The translations under genes and the position numbers were made by a program. This document shows positions 8,059 to 18,806 of a stretch of 39,070 bases of DNA, one piece after another. The notes under the pieces are model-generated. The model was not told where the DNA came from. It saw nothing but the letters and a program-made list of their open reading frames with translations, and did not search any database. Each line of letters begins with the position of its first letter. The stretch's first letter is position 1. This stretch comes from Gemmatimonadota bacterium (GTDB lineage Bacteria > Gemmatimonadota > Gemmatimonadetes > Gemmatimonadales > Gemmatimonadaceae). The stretch lies in NCBI GenBank assembly GCA_016874035.1, contig VGVM01000022.1, forward strand, positions 1 to 39,070, given 5' to 3'.

Positions 8059-9759
8059 CTACAAGTCGAGTACCGGATACCAGCGCGCAGGTGCACGCCG
8101 CTCGACAAAACGCTCGGCGAGCGTTGCGACGCGGAACAGCAGCGATTCGCTCCACGGGCGACCGATCAACTGCATCCCGATCGGGAGCCCATCGGCGCCA
8201 TAGCCTGCCGGGAAGCTGATCGCCGGATGTCCGGTCAGGTTCGCGGGGAACGCGAATCGCATGACTTCCGTGGTCATCGAAAGGTCCGATTCGCCTTCGC
8301 CAAGCGACGCCTCGGTTATCGGCGGCGCGGTCCGGCCGCTCGCCGGCGTTGCGATGACATCCACGCCGCGAAACGCCTGCGCCCATGCCTGCATCGCCCG
8401 CGTGCGTACGCGGGCGGCCGTGACCAGCTCGGCGGAGCTGAAGGACCGCGCCAGCGCGAGACTCACGCGGGAATCGAGGGCGAACTCGCGGCAGCGACCG
8501 TCGTAGACCGCCGTCGTAGAGGCGGCCATTTCGCCGGTGATGATTGCGATGTGGGCGACGCGCTGAAGATCGAGTTCTGGAATCTCGAGTTCCACCACCG
8601 TTGCGCCGTTCGCTTCAAGCGTGGCCAGCATTCGTTCGCCAACGCGCACGACCTCGGCGGTCGCGTGACGGAACCAGGCCCGGTGCACACCGATCCGCAC
8701 GCCACGTACCGAAGCGGGAGGACTGGCTTCGACGGAAACGCGGGGATGTCCGACGCTGAGGGGATCGCGGCGGTCATCGCCCGCGATCAGTGCGTAGGCC
8801 GCCGCGCAGTCCGCGACGTTCGCCGCAATCGGCCCGAGGTACGCCATACTCCAGACCAACGGCGGCACTCCGTGCTCGCTTATCCGTCCGAAGGTAGGCT
8901 TGATCCCGACGAGCCCGCAGAACGCGGAGGGAAGACGGATTGACCCACCGCCATCCGCCCCGATCGCCACGGGAACCAGGCCGCTCGCGACCGCGCAGGC
9001 CGGCCCGCTCGACGAACCGCCGGTGTGAAAGCCGTCGTGATACGGATTGCGCGGCGTGCCGTAGTGCGGGTTGAGCCCGGTGATGTTGATCCCGAGTTCG
9101 TGCATGTTGGCCTTGCCGACGAGCAACGCGCCGGCCGAGCGAAGCCGCGCGGCAACCGTGGAATCCGTGCTTGCGACACGACCGGTATACACCCGCGTTC
9201 CCAGTGTAGTCGGGTAGCCGGCGACGTCGAGCTCGTCCTTGATGGCCACCGGCACACCATCCCAGATGCCGAGCGGGCGACCTTCGCGCCAGCGCGTGGC
9301 GCTTGCGCGCGCCTGAAGCGCGAGGTCGTCGCGATTGACGGCAATCATGGCACGGAGCGGTTTCGCGTGCCGCTCGCTCTCACCCCAGCGCGCCAGGAAG
9401 GACTCGGCGACTGCCTCTGGCGTGAGCTGGCCGCGGCGGTACGCACGGTGGTAGTCCGCGACCGACGGGAACCGGAATCCTGAGGCGACCGGCTGCGGCG
9501 ATGCGGCGTCGGAATACGGGCTGTCATCCGGTACCGTGGCATCGAGAGGCGGGATATCGGGATCGGCCGCCGGGTGCATTGGGAAGAATGTCGGCGGCTC
9601 GCCGACGTGTGCCGTGCGAAGGCGCGTGACGCCCGCATCGCGCTTGAGCTTCTCGATCAGCCAGGGACCAATGAGCGGGTGTTCAACCGCCCGCGTGAGC
9701 CAGCGCAGTCCCGTGCTGCCGAGCTTGGGCAGCGAGACCGACCGAAGGTCGTAGCTCAC
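8059..9759 (-). CDS. Amidase-signature family hydrolase
   Basis: This is a 566-residue member of the amidase signature family, which hydrolyses amide bonds through a Ser-cisSer-Lys triad. The triad is complete: Lys174 in VPVAIKDE, Ser249 in GGSSSGP and Ser273 in [12 protein letters not shown], with the spacing (75 and 24 residues) known for the family. About 100 residues precede the domain, more than a minimal amidase, and show no signal peptide, so the enzyme is probably cytoplasmic. No GatB or GatC gene is nearby, so it is unlikely to be the tRNA-dependent GatA. The start is GTG at 9759, overlapping the stop of the upstream cyanophycinase-like gene as GTGA, which implies translational coupling and possibly a shared job in degrading amides or peptides. 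The substrate is unknown. Confidence 0.9.
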
Positions 9760-12389
9760 TTGATCGGGTTGGCGAGCGTCGCGACGTGTCCGCGCGGGCC
9801 CGCGACGAAACCTGCCCTCGCGCTGGCGAATCCAACGCCGTACGCGGTGAGCGAATCGGCGGGCGACCAGGTCGCGCCAAAATCACGGCTGAACGCGACG
9901 CCGGTCTGGCCGACCGCGGCGAACACGGCGGGCGATGTACCGGGGACGTACACCACGCCGGAGGTCGTGCCGTCGGGGCGTCGAACGCCGGCTGGTGTCC
10001 ACGTGGCTCCGCCGTCCGCGGTGCGCATCGCAAACGATGTGATGCCGCGTTCGTTACGATAATCGCCGCCGATCACGATGCCGTTCATCGCATCGGCGAA
10101 GGCGACACCGAACAGTCCCGAGCTCGCGCCGCCGGGCATGCCAGTCGAGCTCACGGACCACGTTCGGCCGCGATCCTTGGTCCGGAACACACGCGCCTCA
10201 GGGCCGCCGCCGGTGGCGATCCATCCGTTCGATGAACCCTGGACCGTGAGTTGCGTGTTGCTGGCCGCAAACGCCGCCTCGCCCGGAAGCGCAGCGGGAA
10301 TGTCCTGCGGCGGAACGCGCTTCCATGACCGGCCGCCGTCGCCGGTCGTGAGAATCACGAACCGTCCGCCAACGGGGTCAGAGAACGTGAATCCGTTGTT
10401 GCGATCCCAGAACGCAACGCCGTCGAGGAAGATGCCCGTCGTGGTGTCGCTCCAGGCAAGCGACCAATTCTTCCCGCCGTCGCTGGTGCGAAAGATCTTC
10501 GCCGCGCCGCGCTCGGCCGGACCCGCGCTCACAACCACGGCATTCAGCGCGTCGAACGCCTTGATGCCCCGAAAGTCGAGTGTTGCAGCGCCCGCGACCG
10601 AGTCCACCATCCACGTGGCGCCGCCATCGTTGGTGTGGAACACCTTGCCGCCGCTGCAGCCGGCCCACGCCACCTGCTCGGAGGCGGCGCTGAGGCTACG
10701 GCAGCCGGAGTTGCTCGCCACACTTCCGCGCCGAAAGTCGGAGCGATCGCGACCGGTGAACAGCAGGCGCTCGACGATGCGTTCGGCGGCGGCCTTTGCA
10801 TCGAACGTCGGCGAATCGGTGAGGATGATCACCGAGACCCGATGTCCCGGAATCCGCACGAACGCGCCGCGCTTGCCGTCGGGCGCGGCGAATGCGCTCT
10901 GGCGCGCGAGTCCGCGATAGGAGTCAAAGCGCCAGCCGAGGCCGTTGGCGCCGCCCTTGCCACCGCCCTTGGCGAACATCGAGTCGGTGCCGGCGATGGT
11001 CAGTGCGGCATTCTGGGCGAAGCCGAGTTCCAACCGGTAGAGATCGTCCACGTTGGCCATGACGCCGCCGTCCTCGTCCGCGCGGAGGCGCTGGCCGCCC
11101 TGCGCCGCAAACACGCGGCGCTGCATGATGTCGGCGACCTTGCCCTCGCCACGCTGGGCGATGAGTCGCGCGATCTTCCGCGCCCCATCAGGTGCGGCGT
11201 TTGCGCCGGTGAGAATCTCCCGCACGGTCGCGCTTCCGCCCTGGGAAACCGGCTCGTCCAGCGCAAGCTTCTTGTCGCGAGCGAGTGCGAGTGCAGCCGA
11301 TGCGAGCAGTGGCTCGGCGATGCCGCCGGCGCTGAAGTTCGGCGCGCCGGTGGGTGGGACGAACTTTGGATGCCGTTCGACGTTGTATCCCTTCGCGACG
11401 TACACGCGCCCTTCCTGCGCGACGTGAACCGTGGCCTTGCCTCCCGCCGCGCTCGCGAACGGCGCGAACAGCGAGTCAACAAACGCCTGGGTCAACGGTG
11501 TCGCATCAATGGCGCGGGACGTGATGCGGCGCGTGCCGAGGTTGTAGCGATCGCCCGGAAGCAGCTGCGTGTAGGGCATGCCCGGATCCTTCGGGTCGCG
11601 CCCGTTGTACACGAACGCCTTGTTGCGCCCGATGATTTCCCCCTCATCGCCCTTGATCAGCCACGCGGTTCCCTCGTCCTCCGAGATGAAGAGCATCTCC
11701 GGATGGCGCGGCACCAATGAGTCCGCGATGTCCGGCATCCGTTCGCGAGCGACCACGTGCTGGTCAATCCCGGTGTTGCGGAGGTAGCCGAATCCGCGCG
11801 TGTATCCCGGGTACTCCATGATGAGGTTGTTATTCGAAGGCGCTCCGCGGACCATGAAGCTCCCGAGGATCGAGGCGCCCGCGGATGATCCGCCCACCAC
11901 GCCGCCGCGGGCGAGCACGTTCATGAACTCCGTTTCCGTGCGCGTTCCGCCATAGGAGTCCACGAGCCGGAACTGGCGCCCGCCTTCAAACCAGATGCCG
12001 CCCGCCTGCCGGATGATGTTGACGAAGCTGTCGGAGTTGGCGAGGTCTTTGCGGTTCGGGTTGGAATGGAGTACGACGACGCGCTTGGCTCCCGCGGCCT
12101 TGAGCCCATTTGCGCCGCGCCAATCGGCCGGGTACACGGTGTCGCCGCCGGCCGTCGGGACGTCCACGATCAGCGCGTTGGGGCCACCGGCAGCGTCAAT
12201 GAACGCCTTGTAGAGCTCCGGCCCTTGTCCGCCGCCTCCGACCACCAGGACCGTGCCGCGCGGCGGTCCGACGATCGGCGAGGCAGTCGAGGGCGCCGAC
12301 GCTGTGCCGCCGGATCCGGAGATGGCGCCCGCGCAACCGGCGGCGGAAACGGCGGCGATCAGCGTCAGTGTACGCGAAGCTCGGCGCAT
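9756..12389 (-). CDS. Three-part lipoprotein: cyanophycinase-like, degenerate beta-lactamase-like and Ycf48-like domains
   Basis: The 877-residue product begins with a lipoprotein-type signal (SAAGC, Cys19), so it is probably anchored outside the cytoplasm. Residues about 45-300 are a peptidase S51/cyanophycinase-like domain: GTVLVVGGGGQGPELY, the nucleophile elbow GGSSAGAS (Ser169), IDQHVVARERMPD and SEDEGTAWLI. Residues about 312-548 follow the layout of a class C beta-lactamase-like serine hydrolase (VYVAKGYNVERH, LALDEPVSQ, TVREILTGAN), but the SxxK site is replaced by GIAEP, so this part should be inactive. Residues about 552-877 are a propeller with repeated TxDGGxxW units, as in Ycf48-like and sialidase-like proteins. 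The ATG at 12389 has AGGGAG 7 bases upstream; longer starts lack the signal. The amidase gene overlaps its stop. Cleavage of beta-aspartyl-type peptides is plausible, but no cyanophycin synthetase gene is in the window. Confidence 0.85.
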   Translation of the reverse strand: MRRASRTLTLIAAVSAAGCAGAISGSGGTASAPSTASPIVGPPRGTVLVVGGGGQGPELYKAFIDAAGGPNALIVDVPTAGGDTVYPADWRGANGLKAAGAKRVVVLHSNPNRKDLANSDSFVNIIRQAGGIWFEGGRQFRLVDSYGGTRTETEFMNVLARGGVVGGSSAGASILGSFMVRGAPSNNNLIMEYPGYTRGFGYLRNTGIDQHVVARERMPDIADSLVPRHPEMLFISEDEGTAWLIKGDEGEIIGRNKAFVYNGRDPKDPGMPYTQLLPGDRYNLGTRRITSRAIDATPLTQAFVDSLFAPFASAAGGKATVHVAQEGRVYVAKGYNVERHPKFVPPTGAPNFSAGGIAEPLLASAALALARDKKLALDEPVSQGGSATVREILTGANAAPDGARKIARLIAQRGEGKVADIMQRRVFAAQGGQRLRADEDGGVMANVDDLYRLELGFAQNAALTIAGTDSMFAKGGGKGGANGLGWRFDSYRGLARQSAFAAPDGKRGAFVRIPGHRVSVIILTDSPTFDAKAAAERIVERLLFTGRDRSDFRRGSVASNSGCRSLSAASEQVAWAGCSGGKVFHTNDGGATWMVDSVAGAATLDFRGIKAFDALNAVVVSAGPAERGAAKIFRTSDGGKNWSLAWSDTTTGIFLDGVAFWDRNNGFTFSDPVGGRFVILTTGDGGRSWKRVPPQDIPAALPGEAAFAASNTQLTVQGSSNGWIATGGGPEARVFRTKDRGRTWSVSSTGMPGGASSGLFGVAFADAMNGIVIGGDYRNERGITSFAMRTADGGATWTPAGVRRPDGTTSGVVYVPGTSPAVFAAVGQTGVAFSRDFGATWSPADSLTAYGVGFASARAGFVAGPRGHVATLANPIK

Positions 12390-12469
12390 GGCGAAACTCC
12401 CTGGAGTCACGGTTCGGGGAGAACTTCGCGCCTTGTCGGCGAAAGTGCGAGTCGTGCGAGGCGGCGGAA

Positions 12470-12475
12470 TAGATT
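12470..12475 (+). promoter_or_regulatory. Candidate -10 box (TAGATT), GH10-like hydrolase
   Basis: TAGATT ends 6 bases before ATG 12482, in the 92-bp gap shared with the divergent cyanophycinase-like gene. There is no Shine-Dalgarno close to this ATG, so a leaderless mRNA is possible. Confidence 0.4.
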
Positions 12476-12481
12476 TCGGGC

Positions 12482-14188
12482 ATGCGTCGAGTGGCCCCTG
12501 GCACAGGAGTTCGGACTGCAGTCCGGGCGGTTTGCGGCCTGACATTCATGGCCCTCGAGGCGTTGTCCGCGCAGGCTACGACGGCGGTGCGGTTCGGGTT
12601 GTGCCCGCAGACCGAGGCGTTGTCCGCGCAGGCTACGACGGCGGTGCGGTTCGGGTTGTGCCCGCAGACCGAGGCGGCGTGCCAGGCGCCCGATGTGCCC
12701 CGCGAGTTTCGGGGTGTGTGGGTCGCGACCGTCGCGAACATGGACTGGCCGTCGCGACCTGGGCTCCAGCCGGACAGTGCCCGGCTGGAACTCACGGCGC
12801 TGCTCGACCATGCGGTGCGCACGGGGCTCAACGCCGTCGTGTTCCAGGTGCGGCCCGCCGGGGACGCGCTGTACGCGTCCCGCTTGGAGCCGTGGTCAGA
12901 GTACCTGACGGGTCGGCAGGGTACCGCGCCAGCGCCGATGTGGGATCCGCTCGCGTTCGCGGTGCGTGAAGCGCATGCGCGCGGGCTCGAGCTGCACGCG
13001 TGGTTCAATCCGTACCGCGCCAAGGATCCCTCCGGAAAGGGTGCGCTTGCCGCCAGCCACTTCGCGCGCCGGAACCCGCAGTACGCGAAGCGGTACGGAC
13101 GCTACACCTGGTTCGATCCGGGTGAACCAGCGGTACGAAAGCGCACCGTTGACGTGATCCTTGACGTCGTGCGTCGCTACGACGTGGATGGCATCCACCT
13201 CGACGACTATTTCTACCCGTACCCCGAGGTCCGTCGGCGGCGGGAGATCGAGTTTCCGGATGCCGCGAGCTATCGCCGATACCTGAATCGCGGCGGCAAG
13301 CTCGAGAGGTCCGATTGGCGCCGGGAAAACGTGGACGTACTGGTGGATACGCTGCGTCGCGAGATCGCGCGCGCCAAACCGTGGGTGAAGTTCGGGATCA
13401 GCCCGTTCGGCATCTGGCGTCCCGGCGAACCGGAATCGGCCCGCGGGTTCGACGCGTTCGGGAAGATCTATGCCGATGCGCGCAAATGGCTGAAGCTCGC
13501 GTGGGTGGACTACCTGGTGCCGCAGCTGTACTGGGGTGTTGAACAGGACGGACAGCGGTTCGGCGAACTGTTTCGTTGGTGGTCGGCGCAGAACGATTCG
13601 TCGCGCCACGTCTGGCCGGGCCTGGCGGCGTACAAGATCGGTGAGGGCAGGGCCCCATGGGCTGCGGACGAGATCTTGCGCCAGATCGATTCGACGCGGG
13701 CGATAGCGCGTGAGTTCGCGACGCCCAGCGAGTCCAGTTCCGTGAGCGCTGCCGGCGACGCGTCAGTGGCTCCGGTACCGAGCGACCGCAGCGCGCCCGG
13801 AACCATTCACTTCCAGATGAAGGCGCTCCGGCAGGATCGCGACCAGGTTTCGTCGCGGCTCGCCTCGGGGCCGTACCGAAGCGTCGCCCTGACGCCTTCG
13901 ATGCCATGGAAGGGCGGCGCGGCGCCGCCGACTCCGCCGATCGCCGTCACGGCGAGTGCTGCAGGCGACGTGTTGACGATCGGAAGCCGCACTGACGCGA
14001 CGGTGCGTTGGTGGGTGATCCAGGGATTCGTGCGGGGCGCGTGGCGCACGCGAGTGATGGATGCCGCGGTTGATCGTATCCCGCTGTCCGCACTCTGGCC
14101 GGATCAAGCGCGGTCGGAGCTGATTGCGCTTCGCGCGGTTTCCCGGACCGGTGTGGAAGGGCTTCCCGTAGCCATCCGGGTTCGCTGA
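12482..14188 (+). CDS. Secreted GH10-like glycosyl hydrolase (DUF187/GHL10, YngK-like)
   Basis: The 568-residue exported protein has the TIM-barrel motifs of the GHL10 family: REFRGVWVATVANMDWPS near residue 80, GLNAVVFQVRPAGDALY, HAWFNPYRA, GIHLDDYFYPYP (likely carrying the active-site acids), KFGISPFGIWRPG and DYLVPQLYWG. A C-terminal beta-rich segment (about 455-568) follows. These enzymes are linked to glycan or peptidoglycan breakdown, but the substrate of this one cannot be read from sequence. The N-terminal 60 residues contain a hydrophobic export signal followed by a 19-residue block present twice, caused by a 57-bp duplication, which gives two possible ALSAQA cleavage sites. It is divergent from the cyanophycinase-like gene. 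Confidence 0.88.
   Translation: MRRVAPGTGVRTAVRAVCGLTFMALEALSAQATTAVRFGLCPQTEALSAQATTAVRFGLCPQTEAACQAPDVPREFRGVWVATVANMDWPSRPGLQPDSARLELTALLDHAVRTGLNAVVFQVRPAGDALYASRLEPWSEYLTGRQGTAPAPMWDPLAFAVREAHARGLELHAWFNPYRAKDPSGKGALAASHFARRNPQYAKRYGRYTWFDPGEPAVRKRTVDVILDVVRRYDVDGIHLDDYFYPYPEVRRRREIEFPDAASYRRYLNRGGKLERSDWRRENVDVLVDTLRREIARAKPWVKFGISPFGIWRPGEPESARGFDAFGKIYADARKWLKLAWVDYLVPQLYWGVEQDGQRFGELFRWWSAQNDSSRHVWPGLAAYKIGEGRAPWAADEILRQIDSTRAIAREFATPSESSSVSAAGDASVAPVPSDRSAPGTIHFQMKALRQDRDQVSSRLASGPYRSVALTPSMPWKGGAAPPTPPIAVTASAAGDVLTIGSRTDATVRWWVIQGFVRGAWRTRVMDAAVDRIPLSALWPDQARSELIALRAVSRTGVEGLPVAIRVR
12558..12671 (+). repeat. 57-bp perfect tandem duplication inside the GH10-like gene
   Basis: Bases 12558-12614 and 12615-12671 appear identical, and the next six bases (12672-12677) match the start of a third copy. 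The unit is 19 codons long, so the frame is kept, and it spans the end of the signal peptide. Exact identity suggests a recent slip or unequal crossover. Confidence 0.93.
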
Positions 14189-14250
14189 GCGGCTGCGCCC
14201 CGGCGCCAGCGTGGCGGTGCGGTATCCGCACCTCCGTGACGTCACTGCAC

Positions 14251-14264: not shown

Positions 14265-15602
14265 ATGCGCCGCCTGCTGAACAACCTGACGTTTCGCGTC
14301 CTCGTCGCCGTCGCGCTTGGCATCATCTTCGGGATAGTCGATCCCGAGCATGCCAAGGCGATGAAGATCCTCGGCGACATCTTCATTCGCCTGGTGAAGA
14401 TGGTGATCGCGCCGCTGATCTTCCTGACGATCGTGCTGGGGATCGCGAACATCGCCGACCTGAAGAAGGTCGGGCGCGTAGGCGGCAAGGCGATCCTCTA
14501 CTTCGAGATCGTGACGACGTTCGCGCTAGCGATCGGCCTGATCGTGGTCAATGTCACGAAGCCGGGCGCCGGGCTCGACGTGAGCCAGATGACGAAGGGC
14601 GACGTATCCAGCTTCACGGCGCAGGGAAAGGCGCTGAGCTTCTCGGACTTCTTGGTGCATGTCGTGCCCGAGAGCGCGGTCAAGCTTCGAGATGAGCCAA
14701 GCAAACTGCATCTGAGGGCATATCTAGCAAACCAGGAGGGAGGGTTCGCGTGGGCCGACCTTAGTCTCGTTCCCCCTGACGTCCGAGAGATAACCTCAAG
14801 GACGTCGCAGGGCTCAGCTCTTGCTTGGTCGACCTTTACCAGTGGCGGCGTACCTCCGAGCTCAGGCGTCAGCGCGGCGTTGGCGGAGCTCAATGCAGCT
14901 GCGGAGCCTCAAGCCGTGATTGGGGGCCTGGACGCGGCTGCGGGTTTGGCGCTTGCCAGCTATTTGCGACAGCCTGGCTACGGGCTGTTCTTCGATCCCG
15001 CCAAGAACCACGATGCATGGGTGCAGACGGCACCGCTTTCCGAGAAGGTAGCGGCATTGGCCGCTGAACTCGTCGCGGCGCTGGATGCGAGGTTTCCACT
15101 GCGCCCGGACGGCGACGCAGCGGCTGAGGAGATGGAAGCCGATCCGGATGAAGTCAGCGGATTTGAACAGCAGATCGCGACCCGCAGCTTTGCAGTTCCT
15201 GACTCGACGACAACTGCCAAGACGCGGGGTAGCGCGCAGAGAGCGTTTGCCAAGGAGGTAAAGGCGAACTACGGGTCTCAGTGCGCGATCACAGGCATCA
15301 AGTCCAGCGATTTTCTTGTCGCGGCGCACATTGTGCCATGGAGCAAAGATCAAAGTATCCGCTTGGATCCGTCCAACGGCATCTGCCTGTCGCTGATCAT
15401 GGACCGCGCATTTGAAAAGGGCTACATCCTGATCGAGGATGACCTCACGATTCGCGTCGCCGCGAACAAGATTGAGAAGGATGGAGAGCTTCTCACCCTG
15501 CTTGCGCAGTACGACGGGCGGAAGCTGAATGCCCCCAAAGTTTGCGGACCAAAGCGGGAGTATCTCCAACGGCGGCGAGGCTTAGTCGAAGACGAGGACT
15601 AA
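14265..15602 (+). CDS. Chimera: truncated dicarboxylate/cation symporter fused in frame to an HNH-nuclease-like protein
   Basis: Residues 1-139 are the start of a DctA/GltP-type symporter, with three membrane segments (about 9-24, 38-62, 75-97) and the family pattern KAILYFEIVTTFALAIGL; normal members have about 420 residues and eight helices plus hairpins. At Lys140 (14682) homology stops and a different protein continues in the same frame to 445. Its C-terminal part matches the HNH_2 domain: CAITG (Cys340), AAHIVPW (His355, the expected general base), then DPSNGICLS (Asn371). The third metal-binding His, usual in LHD, is Met379 (IMD), so activity is uncertain. The middle (140-320) is unrecognised. 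No in-frame ATG lies between the junction and the HNH domain except one in EEMEADPD. The missing symporter end is not found downstream. GC content in hand-counted 60-base lines is about 52-60%, below many neighbours. A real recombination or an assembly join are both possible. Confidence 0.75.
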   Translation: MRRLLNNLTFRVLVAVALGIIFGIVDPEHAKAMKILGDIFIRLVKMVIAPLIFLTIVLGIANIADLKKVGRVGGKAILYFEIVTTFALAIGLIVVNVTKPGAGLDVSQMTKGDVSSFTAQGKALSFSDFLVHVVPESAVKLRDEPSKLHLRAYLANQEGGFAWADLSLVPPDVREITSRTSQGSALAWSTFTSGGVPPSSGVSAALAELNAAAEPQAVIGGLDAAAGLALASYLRQPGYGLFFDPAKNHDAWVQTAPLSEKVAALAAELVAALDARFPLRPDGDAAAEEMEADPDEVSGFEQQIATRSFAVPDSTTTAKTRGSAQRAFAKEVKANYGSQCAITGIKSSDFLVAAHIVPWSKDQSIRLDPSNGICLSLIMDRAFEKGYILIEDDLTIRVAANKIEKDGELLTLLAQYDGRKLNAPKVCGPKREYLQRRRGLVEDED

Positions 15603-15867
15603 GTGTGCACGCAGGCTGGAGATTACCGGCGGAAGCGAGTCGAGCTGACGACAGTGAGAAAGCTCGCGGTTACACAAACGCCTGAAGAGACTTCAGTCGC
15701 GCTTCACAATGCGCTATGTAGTCCCGAAGCCAACCTGCGCCTGTTCCGGTGACCTCTTCCCCGAATTCAGAGCCGATTCGTAGGTTGTGAGTGCGTACCG
15801 CCACGATGTCCCGTGGAACACACTGAGTACGCGACCGTAGGTTCTGTTTCGGCGCATCTGGCGCCAG
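15603..15867. other. 265-bp stretch with no recognisable gene
   Basis: No convincing frame, RNA or transposon end was seen here. It does not encode the missing C-terminal two thirds of the symporter. Base composition stays lower in GC than the flanking rhomboid gene (31 of 60 in the line starting at 15661). A small CTGAAG/CTTCAG hairpin at 15682-15696 is too weak to call a terminator. It may be the tail of the inserted or foreign segment. Confidence 0.5.
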
Positions 15868-16635
15868 CTACGATGCACGCGGCCGATCGTCCGGCGGCAC
15901 GAAGTTCGAGAGGAACAGCCGCTCCTCCGGTGTGAGGCTCGAAAGCCCCGTGTCGTTGATCTTGTCGAGGATCCGGTTAAGCTCCTCGCGGTTGACCTCA
16001 TGGACACCCGAGACGTCCACGTTCTTCCACTGGGAGAGGCGGTCTGACGCGGGCTTCGCCACCGTGGACGCCCGGAAGCGCGCCATGCGGCGGGAAGGAT
16101 CGATCATCCTGAGGTAAATCCACGCGCCGAGGTACCCGCCCAGGTGCGCGAAGTCGGCGACACCGCCGCGGGACCCCTGGAATCCGCTGTAGAGCGCAAG
16201 CGCCGTGGTAATGATCACAAGCCAGCGCGCCTGGATCGGGATGATCCCCCAGATGTGGATCTCATCGCGTGGCCAGAACGTGGCGAATGCCAGCATCACG
16301 CCGAACACCGCCGCCGAGGCTCCGACAACCGCCGAGTTGAACGCGAAGAGGAACGACAACAGCGCACCGGTGATACCGCTGATCATGTACAGCGCGAAGA
16401 ACCGCTTCGACCCGATGCGCGATTCAACCCGTGGCCCGAAGAAATACAGGCCCAGTATGTTGAACAGGATGTGAGAGAAGCTGGCGTGCAGGAACATGTA
16501 CGTCACGATCGCCCACGGTCGGATCACGATCAGGCGCGGGACGAACACGAACAGGTTCATGAGCAGCGGTACGGTCTGCTGCAGGAAGAACACGACGACG
16601 TTTGCGATCAGGAAACGCGTCACCCAGGGGGTCAT
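15868..16635 (-). CDS. Rhomboid-family intramembrane serine protease
   Basis: A 255-residue polytopic membrane protein that should cleave substrate helices inside the membrane. It has the HxxxxH...N segment (His50-ASFSH-ILFN, with Asn59), the catalytic Ser107 in VVGASAAVFG and the catalytic His164 in DFAHLGGYLGA, so the Ser-His dyad is intact. About six hydrophobic segments are seen, plus a soluble C-terminal tail of about 75 residues rich in charge (ELNRILDKINDTGL, LTPEERLFLSNF). The ATG at 16635 is preferred over one at 16734: GAGG lies upstream and the longer version would overlap the hexosaminidase by 79 bases with residues unlike a rhomboid. It follows the GH20 gene by 20 bases and is probably co-transcribed. 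Confidence 0.9.
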   Translation of the reverse strand: MTPWVTRFLIANVVVFFLQQTVPLLMNLFVFVPRLIVIRPWAIVTYMFLHASFSHILFNILGLYFFGPRVESRIGSKRFFALYMISGITGALLSFLFAFNSAVVGASAAVFGVMLAFATFWPRDEIHIWGIIPIQARWLVIITTALALYSGFQGSRGGVADFAHLGGYLGAWIYLRMIDPSRRMARFRASTVAKPASDRLSQWKNVDVSGVHEVNREELNRILDKINDTGLSSLTPEERLFLSNFVPPDDRPRAS

Positions 16636-16655
16636 TCGGGGGCCTCGGTTCGCCG

Positions 16656-18806
16656 TTACGGAGTGACCGCGGGTGGTCGCGGCAGGCCCATTTCCTCGAG
16701 ACTCGGGAGGCGTCTCGTGCGATTGTACTGCCACCGGGCCTGGTTGAACTGGTCAATACGACGAATCCAGGTCTGTGCGGCGAGGTCGTAACGATTGATG
16801 ACGTTGTACATCCAGTACGGGCGGTTCTCCGCTTTCCAGCTGCGCTCATAGAGCTCGCGGCCCAACACGTAGCCGTCGCGCAGGTCCTGTGTCCGGCTGT
16901 TGATCTGGGAGGCGATCTCCGTCAGGTCATGCGTCGGGTTCGCGCCCTTGGCGACCGAGTCCAGCGCCGCCGCGTAGTGCTGGACGATTTCATCGGCGAA
17001 CTGGAACTTCATGCCGAGGAAGTCGATGCGCCGGGCGCCCATTTCGACCGCCTCGAGCGCGTCCAACTCCCGCAGCGAGGGGCGTGTGCCGTCGCGGCGC
17101 GGCTGCCTGGCCTGCGCGATCAGCACGAGCGCCGACTCGGCGAGGATTCGCACATCCCGGGTCACGCCGCGGAGTCGGGCGGCCATCGCCTGGCCTTCGC
17201 TTCCGAACGGATCCATCCAGTACAGCGGGTTCGTCGCATCACTGGGCCCGTTCTTCATCATCAGCGCGTGGGCCTGCGACAACTTCTGCTGCGCGGTGCT
17301 GATCTTCCCGCTGCCGTCACCGTGGAACTGCAACCCGAACGCCTCGGCGAACGCGGGGATGGACGTCTCGCCCGGCTGCCAGCTCGCGGCGGCGCCATAG
17401 AGCACACCGTACCACACCTGGTTGAAGATCCCCTCGCCGTCATCGTCCCAGTTGGTGTTCAACATTCCGGTGGCGCCGAGCCGCTGGCCATCGCGGACGA
17501 AGGCCTGGATGTTGCGCAGCGCGACATCGTTGTTGGGATAGACGCGGTTCCAGTTGTTTACGCCCGGCGCGACCCAGGTCTCGATCCCCGCATCCGTGAA
17601 CGGCTTGATGGAGCGTTCGAAGTTGCCGAACGACCAGTAGTTCCACGCGACGGCAATCATGTTCTTCGGGAGCGATCGTACGAGCTGCGGTGACTTCTCG
17701 GCGATGTCACCCCAGAAGAGGTACTGCTTGCCCGGCCTTCGGATCGCCGCCTCAATCTCGCGCAGGAACTCGATGTACACCTTCGAGAGCGAATCGCGCT
17801 GCACACGCTCCCGGGTCTGGCCGAGCCCGAGCTCGAAGGTCTCGTCCGCGCCGATGTGGACGAACTTCGACGGGAACACGGAGTCAATCTCGGCGAACCA
17901 CTGCTTGATCACCTCGATCGAGCCCGGCTGGCCAGGCGCGAGGACATGTCCGTGCGGCGTCTCGGCGAGCTGGCCGTAGATGTCGTACTTGAGCATGTGA
18001 TGGAGGTGTCCGAACGCCTCCTGCTCCGGCACGACCTCGATATGGTACCGCTTGGCGTAGGCCACCAACTCGCGCATCTCGTCCTGCGTGATGGTGCCAC
18101 CCGGCGGCGCCATCAACGGATGGGAGCGATACTCGAACGTGTGTTCGTAGTACGGCGAATAGAGGTTGAGCTTGTACGCGGCAAACGTGCGGATCTGCTT
18201 CTTCTGGTACTCAAGGGTCGGGATCGGGCCGCGGGAGAGGTCGTCCTGCATCCCGCGCCACCTCATGGCGGGCCAGTCGCGGATGGTCGCCGTGAAGACC
18301 TGCGGCGCGGCATTCTCGGTGCGGACCAACTGCTTGAACGTCTGGGCCCCGTAGAACAGTCCCTGCGCGCTGGCGCCGACGATCGTGGTGCCGTCCGCAG
18401 TGGCGATCAGCGCGTACCCTTCGGCGCGCTGCAGGGAGTCGAGGGCGAGCCCCGCGGCGCGAAGTGCCTGGGCGCCGACCGGCGACTCGGCTCGCGCAAG
18501 CGTGACCGCGTACGCGCCGGCCGGCGCGGCGTTCAGCACGGCCGCGCGGAGTCCGCGTTCGAGCAAGGTCGTGGCCAGGTCATTGGCGGTGAAGCGATCC
18601 TCTGCGTTGTTCGCACCCAGCACCGCGACGGCGCGAGGCATCGGGAGCAGCGCGCCAGCGCGCATCTCGCGTGGGGCGGGGATGACCTGGGGGCCGGCGC
18701 CGGCCGACTGGGCGCCGACATCGGAGATGGTGGCCGTGTGTGCGAGGGCGTGAGCGATCGCGATAGCGAGCAGCAGCCCTGGGCGGGCAGGCAGAGATCG
18801 GTGCAT
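16656..18806 (-). CDS. Secreted GH20 beta-N-acetylhexosaminidase
   Basis: The 716-residue exported enzyme should release terminal N-acetylglucosamine or N-acetylgalactosamine by substrate-assisted catalysis. A signal peptide (residues 1-32, ending VGAQS) is followed by the GH20b-like N-terminal domain (about 40-170) and the TIM barrel starting at MRWRGMQDDLSRGP. The catalytic pair is Asp321-Glu322 in HIGADETFELG. Further family features are YSPYYEHTFEYR, WNYWSFGNF and TNWDDDGEGIF. An extra C-terminal helical region runs to 716. The ATG at 18806 has no Shine-Dalgarno; TAAGAT lies 7 bases upstream. Together with the GH10-like hydrolase and the SusC/D pair it supports a lifestyle based on amino-sugar polymers such as chitin fragments or peptidoglycan. 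Confidence 0.92.
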   Translation of the reverse strand: MHRSLPARPGLLLAIAIAHALAHTATISDVGAQSAGAGPQVIPAPREMRAGALLPMPRAVAVLGANNAEDRFTANDLATTLLERGLRAAVLNAAPAGAYAVTLARAESPVGAQALRAAGLALDSLQRAEGYALIATADGTTIVGASAQGLFYGAQTFKQLVRTENAAPQVFTATIRDWPAMRWRGMQDDLSRGPIPTLEYQKKQIRTFAAYKLNLYSPYYEHTFEYRSHPLMAPPGGTITQDEMRELVAYAKRYHIEVVPEQEAFGHLHHMLKYDIYGQLAETPHGHVLAPGQPGSIEVIKQWFAEIDSVFPSKFVHIGADETFELGLGQTRERVQRDSLSKVYIEFLREIEAAIRRPGKQYLFWGDIAEKSPQLVRSLPKNMIAVAWNYWSFGNFERSIKPFTDAGIETWVAPGVNNWNRVYPNNDVALRNIQAFVRDGQRLGATGMLNTNWDDDGEGIFNQVWYGVLYGAAASWQPGETSIPAFAEAFGLQFHGDGSGKISTAQQKLSQAHALMMKNGPSDATNPLYWMDPFGSEGQAMAARLRGVTRDVRILAESALVLIAQARQPRRDGTRPSLRELDALEAVEMGARRIDFLGMKFQFADEIVQHYAAALDSVAKGANPTHDLTEIASQINSRTQDLRDGYVLGRELYERSWKAENRPYWMYNVINRYDLAAQTWIRRIDQFNQARWQYNRTRRLPSLEEMGLPRPPAVTP

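Follow-up and report, generated by a model that had tools for sequence, protein, structure and literature searches.

Closest described systems

Transporters of the DctA/GltPh family have their N-terminus in the cytoplasm and the loop between TM3 and TM4 outside the cell. Among DctA/SDF symporters (PF00375, NF002461), the intact DctA proteins from genomes of the same genus align at their start, end to end, with the first 139 residues of the protein analysed here, with up to 84 % identity and at the same locus, but the fusion has no counterpart to the rest of TM4 to TM8, to HP1 and HP2 or to the substrate and ion sites past residue 139-140. Because everything after residue 139-140 is missing, the fusion is not a symporter. 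The second relative is the HNH_2 (PF13391) Type II restriction endonuclease of a module with two methyltransferases (L036, L037, L050, NZ_CP034812.1). Here the C-terminal part aligns free of gaps, whereas the N-terminal ~144 aa are absent, a membrane stub stands in front and no methyltransferase gene lies beside the fusion. The third is a process: insertions and rearrangements linked to restriction-modification (RM) genes have been described, and an RM plasmid entering the chromosome in the laboratory formed joints at 1-3 bp of identity (PMC3031569). Likewise, an RM gene occupies here a chromosomal locus where the relatives have none, and it has a joint at a short match; unlike the described cases, the nuclease tail alone remains, in frame with a resident gene. 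A literature search for comparable fusions returned a single match, which was unrelated.

The fused reading frame and the dctA locus

The window, meaning the whole stretch of 39,070 nucleotides that was analysed, belongs to a genome of 99.5 % completeness assembled into 191 contigs, with an estimated contamination of 3.24 %. On its plus strand an open reading frame of 445 aa (14265-15602) runs uninterrupted from an ATG at 14265 to the stop at 15600-15602; an in-frame GTG is located upstream at 14211. The features of the locus are:

12482 to 14188, plus strand: GHL10 glycosyl-hydrolase-like gene (Pfam GHL10), the conserved left neighbour of dctA
14265 to 14681, plus strand: 5' part of dctA, codons 1-139, covering TM1-3 and a short stretch that corresponds to the beginning of TM4
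14673 to 14687, plus strand: junction, reading GCGGTCAAGCTT, with Ala-Val-Lys codons assignable to either parent
14682 to 15602, plus strand: HNH_2 restriction endonuclease gene, 3' part only, corresponding to homolog residues 145-450; it keeps the HNH motif and lacks the ~144 N-terminal aa
15603 to 15867: intergenic stretch in which the foreign DNA ends on its right side, at a point that is not exactly locatable
15868 to 16734, minus strand: rhomboid protease gene (Pfam Rhomboid), the conserved right neighbour of dctA in the relatives G008 and G002

The initial annotation had described an in-frame chimera of a symporter and an HNH protein with an unbroken frame, and the reading frame check, Pfam and NCBIfam bore this out. 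In Pfam, the fused protein matched SDF over residues 8-139 (E 5.8e-32), covering only positions 1-127 of the 387 in the full-length profile, and HNH_2 over residues 340-391 (E 9.8e-10) with the whole 66-position profile. The top NCBIfam matches of residues 3-140 were DctA models. Three hydrophobic segments, at about residues 4-30, 36-68 and 74-104, agree with the three membrane helices that had been proposed. The DctA N-terminus (residues 1-139) is followed by the C-terminal ~306 of the ~450 residues of an HNH_2 nuclease, and intact HNH proteins align to the fused protein only from about residue 138-140 onward. The nuclease part has indeed no good start of its own: the next in-frame ATG after codon 134 is codon 290, with GTG and TTG as the only candidates in between.

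Both closest relatives, G008 and G002, possess an intact dctA here, flanked by the same GHL10 gene on one side and the same rhomboid gene on the other; in G008 it has 424 codons. To these two DctA proteins the symporter part is 84 % and 79 % identical, respectively, and with the same neighbours it has the orthologous position and start of dctA. The alignment of the window with G008/G002 breaks off at 14684/14676 and resumes at 15878/15879, and the flanks on either side of the fusion are colinear. The GHL10 gene adjoins dctA in several genomes of the same genus, and dctA homologs in genomes of the same genus or family aligned over at least about 400 residues; the fusion was not seen among the matches listed from 60 related genomes. 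The remainder of the symporter is absent downstream, as had been noted before, and a search of the own genome for the dctA C-terminus yielded distant paralogs only. The symporter is inactivated, since its transport core is lost.

The nuclease parent and its restriction-modification module

Comparison of residues 140-445 with genome contigs revealed two homologs, L036 and L037, with 57-60 % identity over 302-303 aa. Both matches begin at the first residue past the junction, and the intact genes encode 450 and 451 aa, with ~144 conserved residues ahead of the matched part. Residues 140-442 of the fused protein and 145-447 of the L037 protein, HNH motif included, align gap-free at 57 % identity, and the region of the HNH motif is conserved with the homologs. 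An AlphaFold model of the intact nuclease, meant to show where the cut falls among its domains, reached a mean pLDDT of 40.6 with four sequences only and was set aside.

The intact homologs originate from a Hydrogenophaga MAG, an Acidimicrobiaceae MAG, an integrase-bearing viral contig and a Paracoccus plasmid. All of these HNH genes follow a gene for a Dam-type methyltransferase and have a divergent second methyltransferase gene nearby; in L036 and L037 the first of these is a D12-class adenine methyltransferase gene directly ahead of the HNH gene, and the second is of the N6/N4 type. The same three-gene order is found on the mobilizable Paracoccus plasmid, beside a recombinase gene and with neighbours annotated as methyltransferases. 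On the viral contig L050 (1-5036, viral collection) an integrase-like reading frame, so labelled from reading its translation, is followed by the complete module of two methyltransferases and HNH nuclease, which suggests an integrating element as its carrier. PADLOC models gave matches for a Type II restriction enzyme and methyltransferase. Judged from these sequences, the conserved three-gene module, its mobile contexts and the PADLOC matches point to the endonuclease of a mobile Type II RM module as the most likely nuclease parent.

The fused gene retained the HNH_2 domain with the HNH motif, and lacks both the conserved N-terminal ~144 aa and partner methyltransferases beside it. A location of the missing parts on other contigs was considered and rejected, as searches of the own genome found none of them. 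A homolog query for the nuclease matched residues 143-446 only, thus the N-terminus was not found, and there was no further nuclease copy. The Dam-type methyltransferase was not found in the own genome either; as positive control, the same query recovered the gene in both homologous genomes. For the second methyltransferase a weak match on another contig was the only one in the own genome. A first-look search of limited sensitivity (1e-15) matched the nuclease family nowhere else among 395 genomes of the phylum.

The nuclease part has a foreign codon composition (GC3 of 0.67 versus 0.80-0.91). In detail, the dctA part has a host-like GC3 of 0.914 and the neighbouring genes have 0.80-0.87; the 0.667 of the nuclease part comes close to the 0.613 of the Hydrogenophaga gene.

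The junction and the origin of the fusion

At the joint, Ala-Val-Lys is encoded by both parents: the junction codons read GCCGTGAAGGCG in dctA of G008 and GCGGTAAAGCTT in the Hydrogenophaga HNH gene, with a nucleotide match of up to nine bases. On the nuclease side the junction cuts through the conserved block GQPYL-A-K-----LHLR. The sequence AAGCTT, a HindIII site, lies at the junction and continues into the nuclease gene. A chimera from HindIII cloning or ligation was considered and rejected: AAGCTT is native to the L037 nuclease gene, and none of the relatives' dctA genes listed carries a HindIII site at the junction codon. In blastn at word size 7, the intergenic stretch 15603-15867 matched neither the dctA-rhomboid spacer of the relatives nor the sequences 3' of the HNH homologs.

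Common assemblers use k-mers longer than ~9 bases. An assembly or binning artefact, in which the contig would have picked up part of an RM gene of a different organism, would fit the fragmented assembly with its estimated contamination, the composition shift at the junction and a nuclease foreign to the phylum sample. However, with conserved neighbours kept in order and orientation on both flanks it would require two separate false joins ~1.2 kb apart, the contig contains no N, the match of ~9 bases at the joint is shorter than the usual k-mers, and a ligation at the HindIII site is opposed by its absence from that codon in the relatives' dctA genes listed. We regard such an artefact as unlikely.

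The fusion is instead best explained, with a probability of roughly 75 %, as a recombination scar: an RM module was inserted beside dctA and one deletion then left an in-frame remnant. We infer two steps in this order. A mobile Type II RM module, consisting of the divergent N6/N4 methyltransferase, the Dam-type methyltransferase and the HNH endonuclease, would first have inserted between dctA and the rhomboid gene. One deletion from about codon 140 of dctA to about codon 145 of the HNH gene, presumably assisted by the short Ala-Val-Lys match of about 9 bases, would then have taken out the last two thirds of dctA along with the methyltransferases and the first third of the nuclease. The frame may have been kept by chance; because one joint in three keeps it, no selection is needed for its retention. 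None of the genomes searched contained the intermediate, a full module at the dctA-rhomboid site; this counts against the explanation, as do the right border that could not be placed and the fragmented state of the assembly. Also against a scar stand the 445 open codons and the intact HNH motif, without visible decay, a state that fits a recent event and fits selection too.

The same kind of dead scar could have arisen by a one-step replacement, in which foreign DNA with the nuclease tail alone recombined illegitimately at two short matches and displaced ~1.1 kb made up of dctA and spacer sequence, and a full module was never resident. The similar lengths of the exchanged segments (~1119 bases in G008 versus ~1193 in the window) and the short match at the left junction agree with it, but a match at the right border was not shown and two illegitimate joints would be needed in a single event, which makes this route rather improbable.

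Two readings had been offered in the initial annotation, a scar of recombination with a foreign nuclease gene and a membrane-anchored HNH effector. The former is supported by the intact dctA at this locus in the relatives and the intact HNH genes in RM modules elsewhere. This very pattern, an intact symporter at the locus and an intact HNH gene elsewhere, had been named in advance as refuting a working fusion. Most likely the fusion is a non-working scar of gain and loss of DNA and not a new kind of protein; its explanation is ordinary. If the scar is real, it presents a readable case of an RM module lost without killing the host: one deletion takes away both the methyltransferases and a part that the nuclease cannot do without, and the host pays with an adjacent gene of its own. 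It would also be a caution that domains fused in frame in just one assembled genome lend weak support to a novel effector architecture.

Membrane topology and function

According to the title of their 2013 paper, as cited in PMC8490817, Mulligan and Mindell reportedly placed the TM3-TM4 loop of this transporter family on the extracellular side. If made, the fusion would be a three-helix membrane stub whose truncated nuclease emerges into the periplasm and not on the side of the chromosomal DNA, because the TM3-TM4 loop is extracellular. Very probably it is unable to restrict DNA. A functional membrane-anchored HNH nuclease as a new effector could build on the open frame, the intact HNH motif and the intact dctA start region. 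Yet the nuclease lacks its conserved N-terminal third, the cut lies inside a conserved block, the tail would exit on the outer face by the topology of the symporter family, and the fusion occurred in no other genome searched, among the matches listed. The anchored effector is not supported by these results and is highly improbable, since an outward-facing nuclease part would have to act without its conserved N-terminal third. It is equally hard to believe that the fusion is expressed in the inner membrane with the HNH domain acting on DNA at or outside the membrane, e.g., on incoming phage DNA, and serves as a solitary anchored nuclease taken over from an RM system.

Other observations in the window

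Near the start of the GHL10 gene, a perfect 57-base tandem duplication (12556-12676, 2.1 copies, 100 % match) is present in frame. It lies just past the start of a divergent open reading frame of 929 aa (9756-12545, minus strand). The encoded protein has a peptidase S51 (cyanophycinase-like) domain and YCF48/BNR repeats, as well as a beta-lactamase-like stretch slightly below the Pfam cut-off. It aligns with its counterpart in G008 over 858 residues with 75 % identity and is therefore not a chimera of the dctA/HNH kind.
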